Assembly (NCBI GenBank): GCA_013141015.1
Contig: JABFRT010000007.1
Span: 72,992-136,991, forward strand
DNA from: Hyphomicrobium sp.
GTDB lineage: Bacteria > Pseudomonadota > Alphaproteobacteria > Rhizobiales > Hyphomicrobiaceae
Length of the DNA: 64,000 bases
Reading direction: 5' to 3'
Positions 7,676-18,548 of the stretch are shown here, in pieces. Positions within the stretch are counted from its first letter, which is position 1; each line of letters begins with the position of its first letter. A model generated the notes under the pieces. It was not told the DNA's origin and searched no databases. It saw only the letters and a program-made list of their open reading frames with translations. Made by a program: the position numbers and the translations under genes.

Positions 7676-8142
7676 TGTTGTCTATCCCTTCATTGAGGCG
7701 GCCGGCGCATCAGATGCGCAATTCCAACGGCTACCCACGAACCCGCTTGATCCATCACGTTTAGTGATACCATTCGCCGAAAATATGGCCGTTTCAGTGG
7801 CATATCCGGCACGCGCTCTATTCTACGCCCCATCCGCCCGAATCCGAACATCCGCGATGTCGCAAACTGAGGATAAATGCGGAATTTGAGCGGTTTATGC
7901 CCGGCAACTGAGGCTTGTCAGGCCTCACGCGCAAAAAGCCGCATGCGGACCGAGGCTCGTGACCGCCAAAGACTGGCCGTGATTCTGCCGCGCAATTTTC
8001 ACTGTGGCGGATCGCGATGAGAGCGTCAGCGTTGTGCCGGGCGCATAAGCGCGGGCGGAGAAATGTGCCGCTGCATTGCGCCGCGGCAGCGCCATCACGC
8101 GCCCGATGCGGCAGCCCAAATCCGGCAGGCGCGCCGGGTCGT
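7676..8142. other. Intergenic region upstream of pal, no convincing gene
   Basis: About 470 bp between the pal start and the terminator of the mini-lipoprotein unit. It presumably contains the pal promoter. A 73-codon minus-strand frame (8146 to 7925) has coding-like composition, but its only start is a TTG inside the terminator T-tract with no ribosome site, so I do not call it a gene. Confidence 0.4.
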
Positions 8143-8198
8143 CCAAAAAAGTTCAAGACCGAGATGATGGCGCACGAGACGCCAACAACTCGGTCTTG
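8143..8198 (-). terminator. Rho-independent terminator for the mini-lipoprotein genes
   Basis: A perfect 10-bp inverted repeat (caagaccgag at 8154-8163, ctcggtcttg at 8189-8198) is followed on the minus strand by aacttttttgg. It lies 40 bp downstream of the first mini-lipoprotein stop and points the right way. Confidence 0.75.
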
Positions 8199-8237
8199 AT
8201 GGTAGATCGAAAGTAGCTTCGACGAACCAGACAGCTC

Positions 8238-8363
8238 TTAGCGAGCAACCTGAACCGACGAAACGTCTGCGCCGAGCTTCATCGGGGTGTGCTCAACTTC
8301 TTTACGGCATGCGCCGAGAGCAACAGCAGCGATAACGGTGGCGAGAACGATTGCGCCCTTCAT
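8238..8363 (-). CDS. Mini-lipoprotein, 41 aa (copy 2 of a tandem pair)
   Basis: Reading the minus strand from ATG 8363 gives a 41-aa protein: a lysine, a hydrophobic helix, lipobox LGAC with Cys19, then a short tail RKEVEHTPMKLGADVSSVQVAR. AAGGAG lies 7 bases before the ATG, and a strong terminator follows the stop. It is a paralogue of the next upstream gene; both share HTPMKLGADV and a final VAR. The mature lipopeptide would be only about 23 residues. Similar tiny lipoproteins (entericidin-like in size only) are often missed in annotation. Location near pal suggests an outer-membrane role, but function is unknown. Confidence 0.8.
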   Translation of the reverse strand: MKGAIVLATVIAAVALGACRKEVEHTPMKLGADVSSVQVAR

Positions 8364-8404
8364 AGATCTTCTCCTTGGTTGTCCTGAGCAAGATTGCTCA
8401 AGGC

Positions 8405-8542
8405 TTAGCGAGCGACCTGCTCGGTAGCCGGGACATCCGCGCCGAGCTTCATCGGCGTATGTGCTTCTTCACGACGGCAAGCGGCAAGCGCCACCGAAGC
8501 AATAACTGCTGACAAAACGATCAGCCCCTTAACACCCTGCAT
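8405..8542 (-). CDS. Mini-lipoprotein, 45 aa (copy 1 of a tandem pair)
   Basis: A 45-aa lipoprotein precursor: MQGVKGLIVLSAVIASVALAAC with lipobox LAAC, then RREEAHTPMKLGADVPATEQVAR. An AGGAG lies 8 bases before ATG 8542; a second in-frame ATG at 8548 sits only 2 bases from it, so 8542 is preferred. It is followed 41 bp later by its paralogue, and the two very likely share one transcript ending at the 8143-8198 hairpin. The conserved HTPMKLGADV tail, rather than just the signal peptide, argues that the short mature peptide is under selection. Function unknown. Confidence 0.8.
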   Translation of the reverse strand: MQGVKGLIVLSAVIASVALAACRREEAHTPMKLGADVPATEQVAR

Positions 8543-8797
8543 GGTCATATCTCCTGATACGATTCCGGCTAAAGCCGTACTCTGGGGTAACTACCCTCGC
8601 CGCTTCGATCAAGAACCGAGGCGGCATTTCTCAAGTTTTCCAACCCCATAGGTGCGAAAATGCAACGGCATGACACACCCCAATCCAGCTGAAAATGCGC
8701 ACCCTGAGTCGCACCGTAAGGCGTTGGAAAATAGCACCTTTTCAAGAGTTGTGAGCAGCTGCGAGAAGACCCCGCCCAGCAACCTATGAATAAGCTC

Positions 8798-12764: not shown

Positions 12765-13252
12765 CTCATCATCCAGGTCGCGCCGGATTGCCCGGCATAT
12801 CCAAAATTTCCCAAGTCGGCAGAACGTGGCCCAACGAACCGCACCACCCGGCAACCAGTGCCATGCAAGCACCGAAACACGGCAGGCGCGCGGCTTGCGA
12901 TCTCGCGAACGTGCGGGACAGATCCATATCCGACTCGTTGATCCCCGGCACGGTCCCTCGTGCACACCCGGCGTGCGCGCTGTGCTAGTCCCGAGCTTTT
13001 CAGCCTGCAATATGACTAAACAAGGGCTTAGGTCCGCATCCCACAGCGACACAGCTGCGCGTTATCCACCGGAAAGGCGGTTTCCCAGGTGCGTGGCTTG
13101 GTATGCCATCCGGCGTGTGAGGAAGGCCTTTGGACGCTGCCGCCCAAAAAAATGGCAGGGACGACGCAACTGCGGCAGTCACGCCACTTATGTTATCGTG
13201 CATCGATTCCGTGACCGGATGATCAGCGTGACCGCCGGAATTTGGGGACGTT
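12765..13252. other. Divergent intergenic region between tolQ and the inserted cassette
   Basis: About 490 bp between two divergent units, expected to hold the tolQ promoter and the promoter of the four-gene plus-strand cassette. Frames crossing it are shadows without ribosome sites. No clear RNA or repeat was seen. Confidence 0.4.
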
Positions 13253-13975
13253 ATGTCGGGGAACAAAATTTTCGCCTTTCTTTTGGTCGCAGCCAGTGCG
13301 GTTGCTTCAAACGCGTGTGGCGATCCGCTATTCAAATTCCGTTACAAGCTATCGATCGAAGCCAACATCAACGGGCAAGTTAAGAAAGCGTCGAGTGTCG
13401 CAGAGGTTGCCTATTGGTTGGACATCGACAACTCAAGCCATGGCTCCGTTAAGGGCGAGGCTCTGTATTTGGATTTGGGCTCAAGTTGCCGTCCTTTGAT
13501 TGCCCTGTTAACTGCGCGACCGCGCAACGGTGCCCGGAATACATCGTGTCAGTGGGGTGAGAATGGGCCCGGCTGTCTGCATGATCTTTACGGAACTGAT
13601 AAGCTAGATTGGAACGACAAGGCGCGACGCCTTGATGGAGGGGAGGCGCTGCTTCGCCAGCGTGGTGCGCGCGCATTGCCAATTGAGCGCCTGCCCGATC
13701 TTGTCACCTTCGAAGATATCACCGATCCCGCGACGGTGAAGGAAGTCAGTCCGAATGATCCAAGCAAAGCTCTGGGTTGCGACTTCGGTTGGCAAAAAAT
13801 CACGCTCGAGATCACGGATGAGCCGGTGACAACGGGGATCGAGAAGAAATTGAGTTGGCTTCCGGACTATTACGATAAGGCTCTCGATGGGCGCAGGCCC
13901 GGCCAGCGAGGGAAGGAAATGGGACTGGCCTCGGAAATGAGCACTGTCGGTTTTCAAATGGGAATGAAGCGATGA
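13253..13975 (+). CDS. Exported protein, cassette paralogue 1
   Basis: A 240-aa protein with an N-terminal hydrophobic export signal ending SNAC (Cys22; non-ideal lipobox). It belongs to a family with two more members in this cassette. Shared blocks are an early FRYKLSIEA (residues 29-37), VKGEALYLDLGSSC (66-79), LPDLVTFEDITDPATVKEV and the closing ITDEPVTTGIEKKLSWL. This copy is the most divergent, with extra cysteines (a CQWGENGPGC loop). GGGGA precedes the ATG. Its stop overlaps the ATG of the next gene (ATGA). I do not recognise the family; an envelope location is inferred from the signal. Confidence 0.8.
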   Translation: MSGNKIFAFLLVAASAVASNACGDPLFKFRYKLSIEANINGQVKKASSVAEVAYWLDIDNSSHGSVKGEALYLDLGSSCRPLIALLTARPRNGARNTSCQWGENGPGCLHDLYGTDKLDWNDKARRLDGGEALLRQRGARALPIERLPDLVTFEDITDPATVKEVSPNDPSKALGCDFGWQKITLEITDEPVTTGIEKKLSWLPDYYDKALDGRRPGQRGKEMGLASEMSTVGFQMGMKR

Positions 13976-14514
13976 CCATAAGTCACGACTTGTTTTTGGC
14001 GCTTCTCGCGATGGATTCGTACAATCGTGGCTACGGTCAGGGGGTTGTCGTTGACGGCAACGCGATAGGCAATGCAACTTTCGAATTGCCGACGGTGCCT
14101 CAGGCTTGGAAGGATGCTGGCTTTTACGCCATTGCATATAATTGGAACGGCAAGACGGTCATCTCGTACCGCGGTACTGATACATTTGCCAGCGATCCAT
14201 TCACAGGCGGTAGTGACATCTTCAACGGATGGGTCTCAGCTCTAGGCACTCGGACGCTTCAGGTTGATCAAGCCCTCCAGTTCTATGCTGATGTGACGGG
14301 TCAGTCAGTTTTTAATGGGCCAGCTTCTAACGTCATTCTGACAGGGCACTCGCTCGGTGGCGCACTTGCAGGGGCCTTGGCAGAACTCGCGCATGGGCCG
14401 CTCAAAGACAAGCCGGTGAACATAGTCATTCCGAACTCCGAAGGAAAACCCCACCTCGAAGACTTGCACACCGTGCTTGCGCGTGCGGTGGCAAGTGAAG
14501 CGAGGCCGGGATGA
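13972..14514 (+). CDS. Truncated lipase-like alpha/beta hydrolase
   Basis: The 180-aa product begins like large alphaproteobacterial lipases: MTISHDLFLALLAMDSYNRG, then GFYAIAYNW, TVISYRGTD (62-70) and VILTGHSLGG (121-130), the nucleophile elbow with Ser127. A lipase domain should continue for another 80 or more residues to supply the Asp and His of the triad. Here the frame ends about 50 residues later, after a different-looking tail (NSEGKPHLEDLHTVLARA). So it is truncated, or fused to a foreign end. There is no signal peptide. ATGA overlaps at both ends couple it to the flanking exported-protein genes. It may be an effector remnant, an inactive hydrolase or a non-catalytic binding partner. 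Confidence 0.7.
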   Translation: MTISHDLFLALLAMDSYNRGYGQGVVVDGNAIGNATFELPTVPQAWKDAGFYAIAYNWNGKTVISYRGTDTFASDPFTGGSDIFNGWVSALGTRTLQVDQALQFYADVTGQSVFNGPASNVILTGHSLGGALAGALAELAHGPLKDKPVNIVIPNSEGKPHLEDLHTVLARAVASEARPG

Positions 14515-15236
14515 GGGGTGTTCTTTTGGTCGCCACCATCATTGTCGCTGGGTGCGGTTTAATCGTTGCTGGATGCGCAAACTATCACACGTATCGCTAT
14601 CGTTTGACGCTTGAAGTCGAGACGCCTGCAGGCATCAAAACGGGCACCGGCGTCTACGAAGTCAGCGTCTCAAGCGGCAAACCCAATTTGATCTCTCCTG
14701 GGGGGACTGCCGGATCGGTCAAAGGGGAGGCGATTTCCATCGACCTTGGGCCATCGGGACGGTTGTTCGCTCTGCTCACAAAAGGCCAAGGCGGAGAATA
14801 CCAGCATAGTTATGTGGGATCATTGCCCAATATCGTCACGACGCGCGCCGGATTGGTTGTCGATGGTCGCCGCCCAGATCCACCTCGATACGGCAATCTG
14901 GCGAGTTTCACGCGCGAAGTAGCATCGCTGAAAGGCAAGATCGAAGTTCTGTTTGACGAACTTCCAATGCTTGTGCGCTTCGCGGATGCCACCGATCCCA
15001 AAAGCGTTGAGTTGGTCCTTCCGGCCAACCTCGAAGCAGCGTTCGGTCCAGGCATATATCTGCGGCGTGCTTGGATCGAGATGACGAGTGCTCATGTGAC
15101 ATCAGGGCTGGAAAAGCATTTGCCATGGATCACGAGTTTGAGAACAGGCCTCGACGGTACAATCGATCACTACCCTTACGGACCGAAAGCAACGTTGGCT
15201 AACGCCCTTTCTGCTCGAAACTTCATTCGCAGGTGA
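14511..15236 (+). CDS. Putative lipoprotein, cassette paralogue 2
   Basis: A 241-aa protein starting with a lipoprotein signal (MRGVLLVATIIVAGC, with a second VAGC at Cys22). The mature part begins YRYRLTLEVETPAGIKTGTG and carries VKGEAISIDLGPSGRLFALLT, LPMLVRFADATDPKSVELV and FGPGIYLRRAWIEMTSAHVTSGLEKHLPWI. These blocks align in order with the genes at 13253 and 15277. The ATG overlaps the lipase stop (ATGA). Probably an outer-membrane or periplasmic-face lipoprotein. Function unknown; with a lipase beside it, an inhibitor or immunity role is conceivable but unproven. Confidence 0.8.
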   Translation: MRGVLLVATIIVAGCGLIVAGCANYHTYRYRLTLEVETPAGIKTGTGVYEVSVSSGKPNLISPGGTAGSVKGEAISIDLGPSGRLFALLTKGQGGEYQHSYVGSLPNIVTTRAGLVVDGRRPDPPRYGNLASFTREVASLKGKIEVLFDELPMLVRFADATDPKSVELVLPANLEAAFGPGIYLRRAWIEMTSAHVTSGLEKHLPWITSLRTGLDGTIDHYPYGPKATLANALSARNFIRR

Positions 15237-15276
15237 CATTGATGAGCCTCGTCACTTTCTCGAATAGACAAACCCC

Positions 15277-16032
15277 GTGAAAACTTTCGCGATCATTCTC
15301 GCTCTTGTGTTCGTGGCATTTCTTTTTCGATGCACCAGCCTTGGCGACCAGCGTGGCGATGTTCGCTATCGCATTGCGGTGGAAGTGGAAACCCCGGAGG
15401 GGACGAAAACCGGTTCGGGCGTTATCGAATCCCGCTTGATCCGGCCGTCTTGGGATTTCCGGGAGTATCACGACAGCCTTGCTGGTGAAGCTATCCCCGT
15501 CGATCTTGGCAAAGCGGGAACCGTCTATTTTACACTGGCAGGAAACGCGTCGAGTTATGAAAAGGCCGGCAGAATCGACGACAAGTGGGACGGCTTCTAC
15601 GGGCTCTGGAATGATTTGCTGCCAACAGAGGCCGAGATGAAGAAGCGGTGTTGGGGCCGCATACCATTTTGCCGGCAGACGGCCCTTTCCAAGATCCGCA
15701 AGCCGGTCGAACTGCCGTTCGACGCGCATCCTCTGTTGGTCCGCTTTGCCAATGAAGCCGACCCGCAGTCCATCGAATATGTGTCACCGGGCGGGACGGC
15801 GATGACCAAGGCGTTCGGACCCGGCATTTACTTGCGGCGCACCACTATCGTTCCGACTTCTGACCGGACCACGACCGGCATCACGAAGCGCTTGCCCTGG
15901 ATTGATAAGATGTTGGCTCAGTATCCAGGCATTCGCGCTGATGGCGGGATACATGGGTTGACCAATTGGCAGTTCGCACCGCTTCCGCATCAATTCTATA
16001 TCAAATATCTAAAAATGGAGCATCGGCCATAG
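15277..16032 (+). CDS. Exported or membrane-anchored protein, cassette paralogue 3
   Basis: A 251-aa product from a GTG start 40 bp after paralogue 2. Its N-terminus is a hydrophobic signal or anchor (ILALVFVAFLF, then RCTSLGD; Arg before Cys makes a lipobox doubtful). The mature part matches paralogue 2 closely: VRYRIAVEVETPEGTKTGSG, LAGEAIPVDLGKAGTVYFTLAG, LLVRFANEADPQSIEYV and FGPGIYLRRTTIV followed by TTTGITKRLPWI. It has its own insertion with two cysteines (KKRCWGRIPFCRQ). It ends 4 bp from the convergent ybgC stop. Confidence 0.8.
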   Translation: MKTFAIILALVFVAFLFRCTSLGDQRGDVRYRIAVEVETPEGTKTGSGVIESRLIRPSWDFREYHDSLAGEAIPVDLGKAGTVYFTLAGNASSYEKAGRIDDKWDGFYGLWNDLLPTEAEMKKRCWGRIPFCRQTALSKIRKPVELPFDAHPLLVRFANEADPQSIEYVSPGGTAMTKAFGPGIYLRRTTIVPTSDRTTTGITKRLPWIDKMLAQYPGIRADGGIHGLTNWQFAPLPHQFYIKYLKMEHRP

Positions 16033-16035
16033 GCC

Positions 16036-16533
16036 TCAGCGGTGAACTGCTTTACCCCCGCCCGCTTTCCCATGCGCCAGAAACGCTTCCCGCACCGCAT
16101 CGCTGAGCCGCAGCGGCTTACCGGCCATCGACACCAGCACCACCGTAACCTCCGCTTCAAAGATGCGGCGGCCCGCACTCGTCACCGCCTGCAACAGCGT
16201 TACGCTGGCGCCGCCGAGTTCCTTCACGTGCGTTTCAACTTCCAGCAGATCGTCCATGCGCGCGGGGCGTAGAAAATCGCAATTCATCCGCCTGACGACG
16301 AACGCCGCCGGCGCGCGGCTATCGGACCCGTCGATCATACCGCGGGCGTCCGTGCCGAGCAGCCGCAGGAAATCGGTGCGCCCGCGTTCGCAAAACCGCA
16401 CGTACGAGGCGTGATACACAACGCCGCCCGCGTCCGTATCTTCGAAGTACACCCGCACCGGCAGCACATGGTGCTGGCCCGTCTCATCCCGCAAAATCTT
16501 GCCCGCCAGATCGGGCCACACATTACCGCTCAA
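16036..16533 (-). CDS. ybgC: YbgC-type acyl-CoA thioesterase of the tol-pal cluster
   Basis: YbgC is a hot-dog-fold thioesterase usually encoded just before tolQ. The 165-aa product has VRVYFEDTDAGGVVYHASYVRFCERGRTD: the Asp in DTDAGGVVYH is the active-site motif of the family. The TTG start at 16533 overlaps the TGA of the upstream phosphoesterase gene (TTGA), and a GGAGGG lies 6 bases before it. It is therefore in one operon with the two phosphoesterases and is separated from tolQ by a 3.3-kb head-on cassette. Confidence 0.92.
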   Translation of the reverse strand: MSGNVWPDLAGKILRDETGQHHVLPVRVYFEDTDAGGVVYHASYVRFCERGRTDFLRLLGTDARGMIDGSDSRAPAAFVVRRMNCDFLRPARMDDLLEVETHVKELGGASVTLLQAVTSAGRRIFEAEVTVVLVSMAGKPLRLSDAVREAFLAHGKAGGGKAVHR

Positions 16534-17468
16534 ACCAATCCCTCCCCGCCCAACTCGACCACCACGATCTCAGGCGGCATCCCGAAGCGAACCGGCATGA
16601 TTGCACACCCTAAGCCGCCAGATACAACCAAATGGCGCGGTAGAGCAGCCACTTCCATCATGCTTGCTTCAACAATGTGCCCATAGGCATAGCGGTTGCG
16701 GTATCTCGACGGAACGACCGGCGAATAGCCGAACACGCGCACTTGCCCTCCATGCGTGTGACCTGAAAGCGTCAGCGAAACACGCTCCGGCACGACGGGG
16801 AAAATGTCGGGCTCGTGGGCGAGAAGGATCACCGGAGAGTGATCGGTAATTTTGGCCATCGTCGCGGGTAGATCATCGACGCCTGTCATGCGCTTGCGGC
16901 CGTATTTCTTTCCGGGCAATAGAGCCAATTGATCGCCCAGTCCTGCAATCCAGAATGGCTGGTCTGCCTTTGAAAGCCGCACAGCGTCATTGTCGTAGAC
17001 GCGAATGCCAAATTTCTCGAGCGCCGTTTGGCTGAACACCGGGCCATGTCCCTGGCGCTGTGCCGTCTTGTCTTCCCACCAATCATGATTGCCGAGCACG
17101 GCATGAACACCAAGGGGAGCTTTCAATTCACCCAATGCTGCCGACCATTCGCTCGAATGAACCCAATCCGTCACCCAATGATGGCCAGCACAATAGTCAC
17201 CCAGCAAAACGATGATATCGGCGCCAAGCGCGTTTGTCTGGTGAGCAAGGTCGCGAATGCGCTCAACAGTCATCCACGGTTTGCAAGCATGGATATCGGC
17301 AAGAACCGCAATCTTGAGCTTCAATCCCTCTGGCCAATTGCCTGGACGAATTGCGTATCGCGTGACGAGCGTGCGCATTGGCTCTACGCCAAAAGCATAC
17401 CCCGCAAGTCCCACACCGCCAGCAACAAACGCGGCTGCCCCTTTCAGAAATCCGCGACGGGAAATCAC
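16530..17468 (-). CDS. Tat-exported metallophosphoesterase (tandem copy 2)
   Basis: A 312-aa protein with a twin-arginine signal (SRRGFLKGAAAF) and the five calcineurin-type metal motifs: VLADIH at about 54-59, LLGDY near 87, VLGNHDWW near 123, LLAHEPD, and LSGHTHGGQ. Such YkuE/YaeI-like enzymes hydrolyse phosphodiesters or phosphoanhydrides with two metals; the substrate is not visible from sequence. The GTG start overlaps the stop of its paralogue upstream (GTGA). Sequence similarity along the whole length shows a tandem duplication. Confidence 0.9.
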   Translation of the reverse strand: MISRRGFLKGAAAFVAGGVGLAGYAFGVEPMRTLVTRYAIRPGNWPEGLKLKIAVLADIHACKPWMTVERIRDLAHQTNALGADIIVLLGDYCAGHHWVTDWVHSSEWSAALGELKAPLGVHAVLGNHDWWEDKTAQRQGHGPVFSQTALEKFGIRVYDNDAVRLSKADQPFWIAGLGDQLALLPGKKYGRKRMTGVDDLPATMAKITDHSPVILLAHEPDIFPVVPERVSLTLSGHTHGGQVRVFGYSPVVPSRYRNRYAYGHIVEASMMEVAALPRHLVVSGGLGCAIMPVRFGMPPEIVVVELGGEGLV

Positions 17469-18403
17469 GCAACCGCCTCCCCGCCAAACTCGACCACCAC
17501 GATCTCAGGCGGTGACCCGAGCCGCACGGGCATTGCCGAACAGCCAAGCCCGCCGGAGACGATCAGGTGGCGCGCATCTTCAACGACATGCCCATACGCG
17601 AAGCGATTGCCAAACAGAGACGGCACCACCGGCGAATATCCAAATATCCGCAACTGGCCGCCATGCGTATGCCCCGACAACGTCAGCGCCACCCGCTTGG
17701 GCACTTCTGGAAAAACATCAGGCTCATGCGCCATCAAAATCACCGGTGCATCGTCGGTCACCTGTGCGAGCGTTGCCGGCAAATCATCAACGCCCGTGTA
17801 GCGCACGCGGGTGCGCCGCTTCATGCTGTCATAGTCGTCCGCATCCGGCCAGAACGCCCATTGATCACCCAGCCCGGCAATCCAAAACGGCCGGCCATCT
17901 TTGACCAACCGCACAGCTTTGTTTTCATAAACCGGAATACCAACGGCTTCGAGTGCCAGCCCCGCCCGCGTTGGCCCTGAGCGGCGCACCTGCACCTCGT
18001 ACTCGTCCCACCAATCGTGATTACCAAGCACCGCATGCACGCCAAGTGGCGCCTTCAAACGGCCAAGCGGCTTGGCCCAATCTTGCACCGCGACCGGCCT
18101 CGAGAACTTTCCCAAGCGATGTCCAACCACGTAATCGCCAAGCAGTAAAATCGCGTCGGCGCCAAGCGCATTGGTTTGCGCAACGATGGCCTCGACACGC
18201 TCCAGAGACATCCACGGCTCGCAAATGTGCATGTCCGCCAAAACCGCGATACGCAGCTTGAGGCCCGGCGTCCATCCCGGCGGCGATATCGCATACCGCG
18301 TCACGCGCTGGCGCAAACTCTCGGCCACCGCATAGCCGCCAAATGCCGTTCCGCTGAACCCGAGCACAGCCAGCGCTTTCAAAAGATCACGGCGGGAAAT
18401 CAC
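17465..18403 (-). CDS. Tat-exported metallophosphoesterase (tandem copy 1)
   Basis: The paralogue of the following gene, with Tat signal SRRDLLKALAVLGFSG and the same metal motifs: VLADMH, LLGDYVVGH, VLGNHDWWDEY, LMAHEPD and LSGHTHGGQL. The start is set at GTG 18403, which gives MISRRD in register with the copy-2 start; a TTG at 18421 is also open. It heads the small operon phosphoesterase-phosphoesterase-ybgC. Export by Tat suggests folding with metal before transport to the periplasm or membrane face. Confidence 0.9.
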   Translation of the reverse strand: MISRRDLLKALAVLGFSGTAFGGYAVAESLRQRVTRYAISPPGWTPGLKLRIAVLADMHICEPWMSLERVEAIVAQTNALGADAILLLGDYVVGHRLGKFSRPVAVQDWAKPLGRLKAPLGVHAVLGNHDWWDEYEVQVRRSGPTRAGLALEAVGIPVYENKAVRLVKDGRPFWIAGLGDQWAFWPDADDYDSMKRRTRVRYTGVDDLPATLAQVTDDAPVILMAHEPDVFPEVPKRVALTLSGHTHGGQLRIFGYSPVVPSLFGNRFAYGHVVEDARHLIVSGGLGCSAMPVRLGSPPEIVVVEFGGEAVA

Positions 18404-18548
18404 GGCTATGCCTGCCCTCAAGTCTTGATTGCGCTGAATTGGTCCGACCCGGAATTTTTAAGCACGAACCCTGCCACGCGGCCGTCACTAGGCCAAAGAG
18501 TCCGGCGAGAAAATGGTTGAAACCGCGTTAGGCTCTAAGCTGTTAGCT

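Follow-up and report, generated by a model that had tools for sequence, protein, structure and literature searches.

In staphylococci, the type VII secretion system (T7SS) protein TslA carries an N-terminal phospholipase and a C-terminal secretion part, and its lipoprotein immunity paralogues (TilA) are encoded upstream in variable number, even where the toxin is missing; the tilA genes are reported to be shuffled by way of a conserved stretch in their middle (PMC10730906). The immunity protein Tli of Enterobacter cloacae also activates its lipase (PMC10294624), and type VI secretion system (T6SS) loci of Vibrio cholerae contain displaced effectors, with the immunity genes kept as arrays among effector remnants (PMC5361080). 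In the alphaproteobacterium Caulobacter, the toxin of the Cdz system is antibacterial and leaves the cell by type I secretion, and its immunity protein sits in the envelope (PMC5380434); RzcA and other repeats-in-toxin (RTX) bacteriocins tie rhizobial RTX proteins to competition, by a mechanism described as uncharacterised in a 2010 review (PMC3034196). Here we analyse a four-gene cassette in a 64,000-nucleotide stretch of Hyphomicrobium sp. DNA (contig JABFRT010000007.1, positions 72,992 to 136,991; the window), in which three paralogues of a family that we call X accompany the truncated start of a lipase; related lipases are called LIP. We consider it likely, with a probability of roughly 70%, that the cassette is what remains of a type I-secreted RTX lipase toxin locus, an array of orphan immunity genes, as judged from the genes of the cassette and its relatives.

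Results

The cassette and its flanks comprise the following features.

13253 to 13975, plus strand: X1, 240 amino acids (aa), exported-protein paralogue and candidate orphan immunity protein, matched by the X profile
13972 to 14514, plus strand: lipase fragment, 180 aa, truncated N terminus of an RTX-type lipase
14511 to 15236, plus strand: X2, 241 aa, paralogue with a hydrophobic N terminus and a lipobox-like VAGC
15277 to 16032, plus strand: X3, 251 aa, GTG start, paralogue; no lipase start detected 3' of X3
12764 to 12048, minus strand: tolQ, flanking the cassette on the opposite strand
16533 to 16036, minus strand: ybgC, flanking the cassette on the opposite strand
12765 to 16035, no strand: tolQ-ybgC interval, 3.3 kb here

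An earlier note on this DNA, made from its letters alone, had described a cassette of four genes from 13253 to 16032, against the strand of the tol genes and splitting ybgC from tolQ; the four open reading frames (ORFs) and this layout were confirmed. The ATGA overlaps it described are present in the sequence, at 13972 (coupling X1 to the lipase fragment) and 14511 (coupling the fragment to X2); X2 and X3 do not overlap and are 40 nucleotides (nt) apart. It had further taken the X genes to encode three paralogous exported proteins. Alignment supports their homology, X1 and X3 being 31% and 40% identical to X2, while their export is no more than a prediction: each carries a hydrophobic stretch at its N terminus (best 15-residue means of 2.0, 2.8, and 3.0 for X1, X2, and X3), and X2 alone among them has lipobox-like VAGC sites. 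X2 and X3 are sisters in the X tree (support, 0.914), with X1 outside their clade.

The relatives of the cassette were collected in two sets. Set A consists of 67 loci in addition to the window; 60 of these regions account for 65 of the 77 places, own genome excluded, that an order-wide X search had found, and the 12 places left out are mostly the weakest. Set B was found through the lipase and holds the best 80 of 91 confirmed loci (145 stretches matched). Six contigs are common to both sets. In set B, X lies directly upstream of 88 of the 100 lipase ORFs (82/90 away from the 5' end of the locus) and of 36 of the 42 LIP ORFs of at least 350 aa, mostly overlapping them or a few nucleotides away. 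To judge from their sequences, these intact LIPs are large RTX proteins in a type I secretion context. GGxGxD nonapeptide repeats are present in 38/42 of them and a GxSxG motif in 41/42, and Pfam HemolysinCabind was found in two intact relatives (P0001 and P0002); the 870-aa LIP of plasmid L230 has no GGxGxD repeats. A Shinella plasmid (L228) presents the order hlyC-X-lipase-hlyB-hlyD. The HlyB/HlyD models TIGR01846 and TIGR01843 scored above cut-off in all four loci given to NCBIfam, which had been picked from 26 scanned because they had an ABC motif, and similar matches occur in further loci, including plasmids L228 and L230; many loci have no HlyB/HlyD within view. In set B, edge loci set aside, HlyC-type acyltransferases stand beside X at 12 of the 35 intact loci and at 5 of the 27 without toxin. 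The lipase fold of LIP is closest to 9cys, the structure of an antibacterial T6SS lipase together with its immunity protein (top row), with a feruloyl esterase and other lipases trailing by 1 to 2 Z units. Some of the plasmid copies sit in root-nodule bacteria.

In set A and the window, a profile-detectable lipase start lies directly 3' of 21 of 77 X ORFs. After 11 more ORFs, in nine loci, there is a degraded start (for example, LLAMD-Y), recognised by eye with no chance control, and the remaining X of set A, most f35 copies included, have no lipase start after them. A lipase ORF of at least 350 aa was found in just 2 of the 67 loci, some of which are cut by contig ends. The genome of the window holds a fourth X copy, on contig C17, 38% identical to X2 and followed by a lipase start that ends beside an IS110-like transposase gene. 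Thus both X loci of this genome precede lipase N termini, with no full lipase in view at either, and in the rest of the genome the lipase query found nothing beyond two weak matches (E values of 0.07 and 0.19). By eye, C17 has two near-identical IS110-like transposase genes, one of them shortened (L005:3747-4613 and L005:6045-7055); they flank a 292-aa protein without a Pfam match, and one lies where the C17 lipase fragment ends.

We then considered what surrounds intact lipase genes, counting 37 LIPs of at least 700 aa, 34 with more than 2.5 kb visible upstream and 17 with more than 1.5 kb visible downstream. Upstream, extra X copies were present in 13/34 and lipase fragments in 9/34, and downstream neither was seen in any of the 17 (Fisher P = 0.0022, the two groups overlapping). 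The count includes the related pairs L126/L127 and L159/L168, and in L168 the additional X is a split gene. In L097, a fragment has two GGxGxD motifs straight after the lipase start, as if by internal deletion, and in Rhizorhapis (L125) the displaced fragment and the intact gene are 99% identical over 245 nt. Frigidibacter SD6-1 has the order X1-fragment-X2-LIP and strain RF13 a single X-LIP, in which the 5' part of X matches X1 of SD6-1 and the 3' part matches X2; the Frigidibacter copies have a common 300-nt block at 98%. One recombination between X genes would therefore convert one Frigidibacter state to the other, in either direction. For 15 of 48 X, the nearest relative in a rough tree with long branches is a mate from the same array.

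X persists without its toxin under purifying selection in other genomes. Among X pairs from loci without an intact LIP (at least 60% identity, finite synonymous divergence above zero), the ratio of nonsynonymous to synonymous substitution rates (dN/dS) was 0.13 to 0.49, the pairs being non-independent. In two close pairs, X was 90.3% and 96.0% identical; the 400 nt beyond it had 14 and 18 gaps and identities of only 77.6% and 73.9%. No such difference was seen in a third close pair, which had no detectable lipase (X, 89.6%; following stretch, 88.9%), and the values were 99.8% and 99.5% in a fourth pair, whose LIP is intact.

The lipase gene of the window is truncated, as the earlier note had said. 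It has the GHSLGG motif and barely passes the Pfam Lipase_3 model (23.9 bits against a cut-off of 22), and its similarity to intact relatives stops near residue 141, retaining Ser127 in GHSLG. We aligned 42 intact N-terminal lipase domains picked by length and a GHSLG-type elbow, so that Ser131 is present in 42/42 by construction; the conservation of His265 (42/42) and Asp152 (36/42) does not follow from that choice. This conserved Asp and His are missing from the window fragment and, since its similarity ends after the Ser neighbourhood, it cannot form a catalytic triad. Its tail of about 39 aa has no match elsewhere in the genome, and the 180-aa fragment has no RTX repeats. Truncated lipase ORFs of set B, measured stop to stop, take every length across 48 to 273 aa. 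Breakpoints in sets A and B seem to cluster near profile positions 70 to 76 (after YRGTD) and 132 to 139 (after GHSLGG), the second cluster being partly an artefact because the profile stops at 139. Two fragments of one genome (L082:7660-7989 and L115:5275-5664) have a near-identical short tail directly after YRGT, perhaps a dispersed repeat.

The cassette was inserted between tolQ and ybgC and is not ancestral at this site. Among 22 genomes of the genus that were searched, ybgC was found in 20, own genome included, leaving 19 congeners. The tolQ-ybgC distance is 305 to 383 nt in 15 of them, and in the other four tolQ is further away, with other DNA in between; the X and lipase models had no match at this junction in any of the 19. 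Moreover, the GC content of the cassette (54.9%) is below that of the window (60.4%) and of all 613 sliding windows of 2,780 nt. Together, the congeners' junctions and the low GC content indicate that the cassette was acquired here. The four congeners with other DNA are L217, L218, L219, and L220, the first having a permease-like ORF (by eye), so the junction may be a recurrent insertion site. Beside ybgC, the window has a pair of adjacent, paralogous metallophosphoesterase-like genes whose starts are twin-arginine-like (16530-17468 and 17465-18421, minus strand; by eye).

X is a family absent from Pfam and NCBIfam: 79 X searched at an E value of 0.01 gave three single matches only (Wzz, DUF1189, and LptM). 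It was found in 6 of 103 genomes of the family (single-sequence search) and in 57 of 397 sampled from the order (8-row profile; E value, 1e-4). A 79-row profile (E value, 1e-6), from which seven of 83 candidate rows had been left out, found X in 5 of 387 genomes sampled from the class and in 23 of 397 sampled from the phylum; none of these 23 falls outside that class. The class and phylum samples count the own genome and were asked for at least 90% completeness. By a simple pattern, without a signal predictor, 149 of 153 X having a full N terminus show a hydrophobic N-terminal stretch and 52 of these 153 a lipobox-like site. The AlphaFold model of X2 is fairly confident (mean pLDDT, 84.6; pTM, 0.81) and predicts a strand-rich protein; nothing matched it in a structure comparison. 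Among the titles and abstract starts listed for open-licence PubMed Central text, there was no X or X-RTX lipase pair.

Some occurrences stand apart. On plasmid pRle248d of Rhizobium leguminosarum bv. viciae 248, a lone X is surrounded by caspase-family genes (L225:8905-9687); strain 248 is named in the RTX bacteriocin review (PMC3034196), and pRle248d was not among the seven records with a lipase match, chromosomes not having been searched. The conjugative plasmid pMLb of Mesorhizobium japonicum has a tandem X pair (L226:6826-7515 and 7911-8600) next to an alpha/beta hydrolase gene on the opposite strand. Outside the Alphaproteobacteria, X-lipase pairs or lipase pieces were seen mostly in metagenome-assembled genomes (MAGs), where binning errors are possible:

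L162, Saprospiraceae MAG; L181, Nitrospira MAG; L119, Nitrosomonas MAG
L124 and L149, Burkholderiales MAGs; L184-L185, Nostoc

Discussion

We propose that the cassette derives from an effector-immunity operon whose fullest form would be hlyC-X-LIP-hlyB-hlyD. LIP, whose class-3-like lipase domain stands at the N terminus of a large RTX protein, would be exported by type I secretion and act on bacteria; X, presumably an envelope protein anchored by its N terminus, would most likely act by binding the lipase domain of LIP molecules that come from sister cells, and so block it. The type I secretion signal is C-terminal, which would place the toxic domain at the N terminus, the immunity gene 5', and the pile-up of extra X and fragments also 5', in a layout that mirrors contact-dependent inhibition, Rhs, and T6SS modules. 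In the window, the toxin body would have been lost, leaving three diverged X and one dead lipase fragment, and X1 to X3 may still protect the cell against the lipases of relatives. Linkage, accumulation on the 5' side, mosaic arrays, loss of the toxin with X kept, the predicted envelope location, and the effector-like fold together favour immunity, and do not prove it.

This agrees with the core idea of the earlier note, a remnant of an envelope lipase/inhibitor module whose inhibitor genes are duplicated. Its T6SS framing does not fit, since the intact partners are large RTX proteins, in several loci with HlyB/HlyD and HlyC close by, although no search for T6SS genes was made. Its variant in which the lipase serves as a scaffold finds no support: fragments take all lengths, and the stretch after X decays faster than X in two close pairs. 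It had also allowed that X might prove to be a housekeeping family or the cassette ancestral at this site, and neither was found. In the genome survey that it suggested, many X had no long lipase and most lipases found were preceded by X; in the modelling, the X2 model had no structural match.

Several observations weigh against immunity. Many X in X-found loci lack any lipase trace. The lipase query consisted of fragments and one gene all found beside X, so that 88/100 is a biased figure for that lipase subfamily, and the 12 lipase ORFs with no X in view include the full-length L124, L149, L155, L157, and L178. In arrays, the LIP-adjacent X best fits the X of related LIPs in 20 of 45 cases, about the guessing level; this test of co-inheritance thus gave no support, and cognate specificity is not seen at these distances. 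Without a clear fold or family match, X has no homology to a known immunity protein. No close relative of X1 to X3 was found, and the constraint figures come from other X. Finally, HlyC beside X suggests membrane-active RTX toxins, which may target eukaryotes, in which case X need not be a bacterial immunity protein.

Alternatively, X could be a dedicated partner that the lipase needs to fold, to become active, or to be exported, and not mainly an antidote, lone X being relics. Lif serves lipases of the type II secretion system as such a partner, and cytosolic Tli serves Tle. The position of X directly upstream of most long LIP ORFs fits this, as does the precedent of Tli, an immunity protein reported also to activate its lipase (PMC10294624). 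We nevertheless regard it as unlikely: X is under purifying selection in toxin-less loci and multiplies in mosaic arrays, no lipase foldase model of Pfam or NCBIfam matches any of the 79 X at an E value of 0.01, the sole chaperone-named match among them being LptM (1/79; E value, 0.0064), and family I.3 RTX lipases require no extra gene product, as stated in a review (PMC3034196). Since Tli doubles as an activator, a dual immunity/activator role is realistic for X too, and possible by analogy.

Less probable still is that the cassette is a neutral, decayed relic of an acquired and broken RTX lipase operon, with X1 to X3 simply not lost yet. The lost Asp and His of the fragment, the end of the genome's fourth X-lipase pair at a transposase gene, and the absence of the cassette from congeners at this site would all be expected; against this, X1 to X3 are all intact ORFs in spite of their divergence, which may predate acquisition, and toxin-less X elsewhere is constrained, with figures from X other than these three. 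That the lipase targets eukaryotic hosts or environmental lipids, X being a surface tether or regulator, seems very improbable, in spite of the HlyC-type acyltransferases beside X and the plasmid copies in root-nodule bacteria, because a tether would hardly be kept and multiplied without its enzyme and the nearest match among solved structures is to an antibacterial effector, even with a feruloyl esterase and other lipases near in score.

Comparison with known systems

Under the immunity reading, the closest system in layout is TslA/TilA (PMC10730906). Both have an N-terminal lipase, immunity-type genes at the 5' side in varying number, and retention of these without the toxin. The differences lie in how the toxin is secreted, in the host group, and in the candidate immunity family. 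Where TslA, which has Tla partners, carries a helical C-terminal T7SS targeting domain, LIP has RTX repeats in its place; the LIP lipase has a GxSxG motif like that of TslA and may likewise be a phospholipase. NCBIfam SA1320_fam, a name that we do not equate with TslA, was matched by 12 of 20 LIP domains (best E value, 2.4e-9), the one match shown in full being far below the model's cut-off. DUF576, the TilA immunity family, was matched by none of the 79 X in Pfam at an E value of 0.01.

The Tle6-type phospholipase/Tli pair of E. cloacae (9cys; PMC11470151, PMC10294624) has a lipase fold like that of LIP, others being close, and is delivered by the T6SS, in contrast to the type I context of LIP. 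Tli is all-helical with ankyrin repeats (PMC11470151), whereas X is predicted to be strand-rich, and no ankyrin Pfam match occurs among the 79 X. At no LIP reference position is Lys found in at least 25 of the 42 sequences, and hence the crosslinking Lys of Tle6/Tli has no evident counterpart. The displacement of effectors follows the same logic as in V. cholerae, on the opposite side of the toxin gene: the V. cholerae arrays lie 3' of the effector (PMC5361080), and the extra X and remnants 5' of LIP. Cdz consists of two small glycine-zipper proteins and an immunity protein with three transmembrane segments, with no lipase and no giant RTX protein (PMC5380434). RzcA-type bacteriocins (PMC3034196) resemble LIP in being rhizobial/alphaproteobacterial RTX proteins, and we do not equate the two.

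On balance, we lean slightly towards an undescribed class of type I-secreted polymorphic toxins in Alphaproteobacteria, a mirror image of contact-dependent inhibition (CDI)/Rhs systems: an N-terminal lipase toxin, a C-terminal RTX secretion part, the unannotated X at the 5' side, and arrays growing 5' through X recombination. If so, giant alphaproteobacterial RTX lipases would have a cognate immunity family and a testable role in competition, X would be a marker for finding them, and orphan immunity arrays would arise whichever end of the protein carries the toxin.
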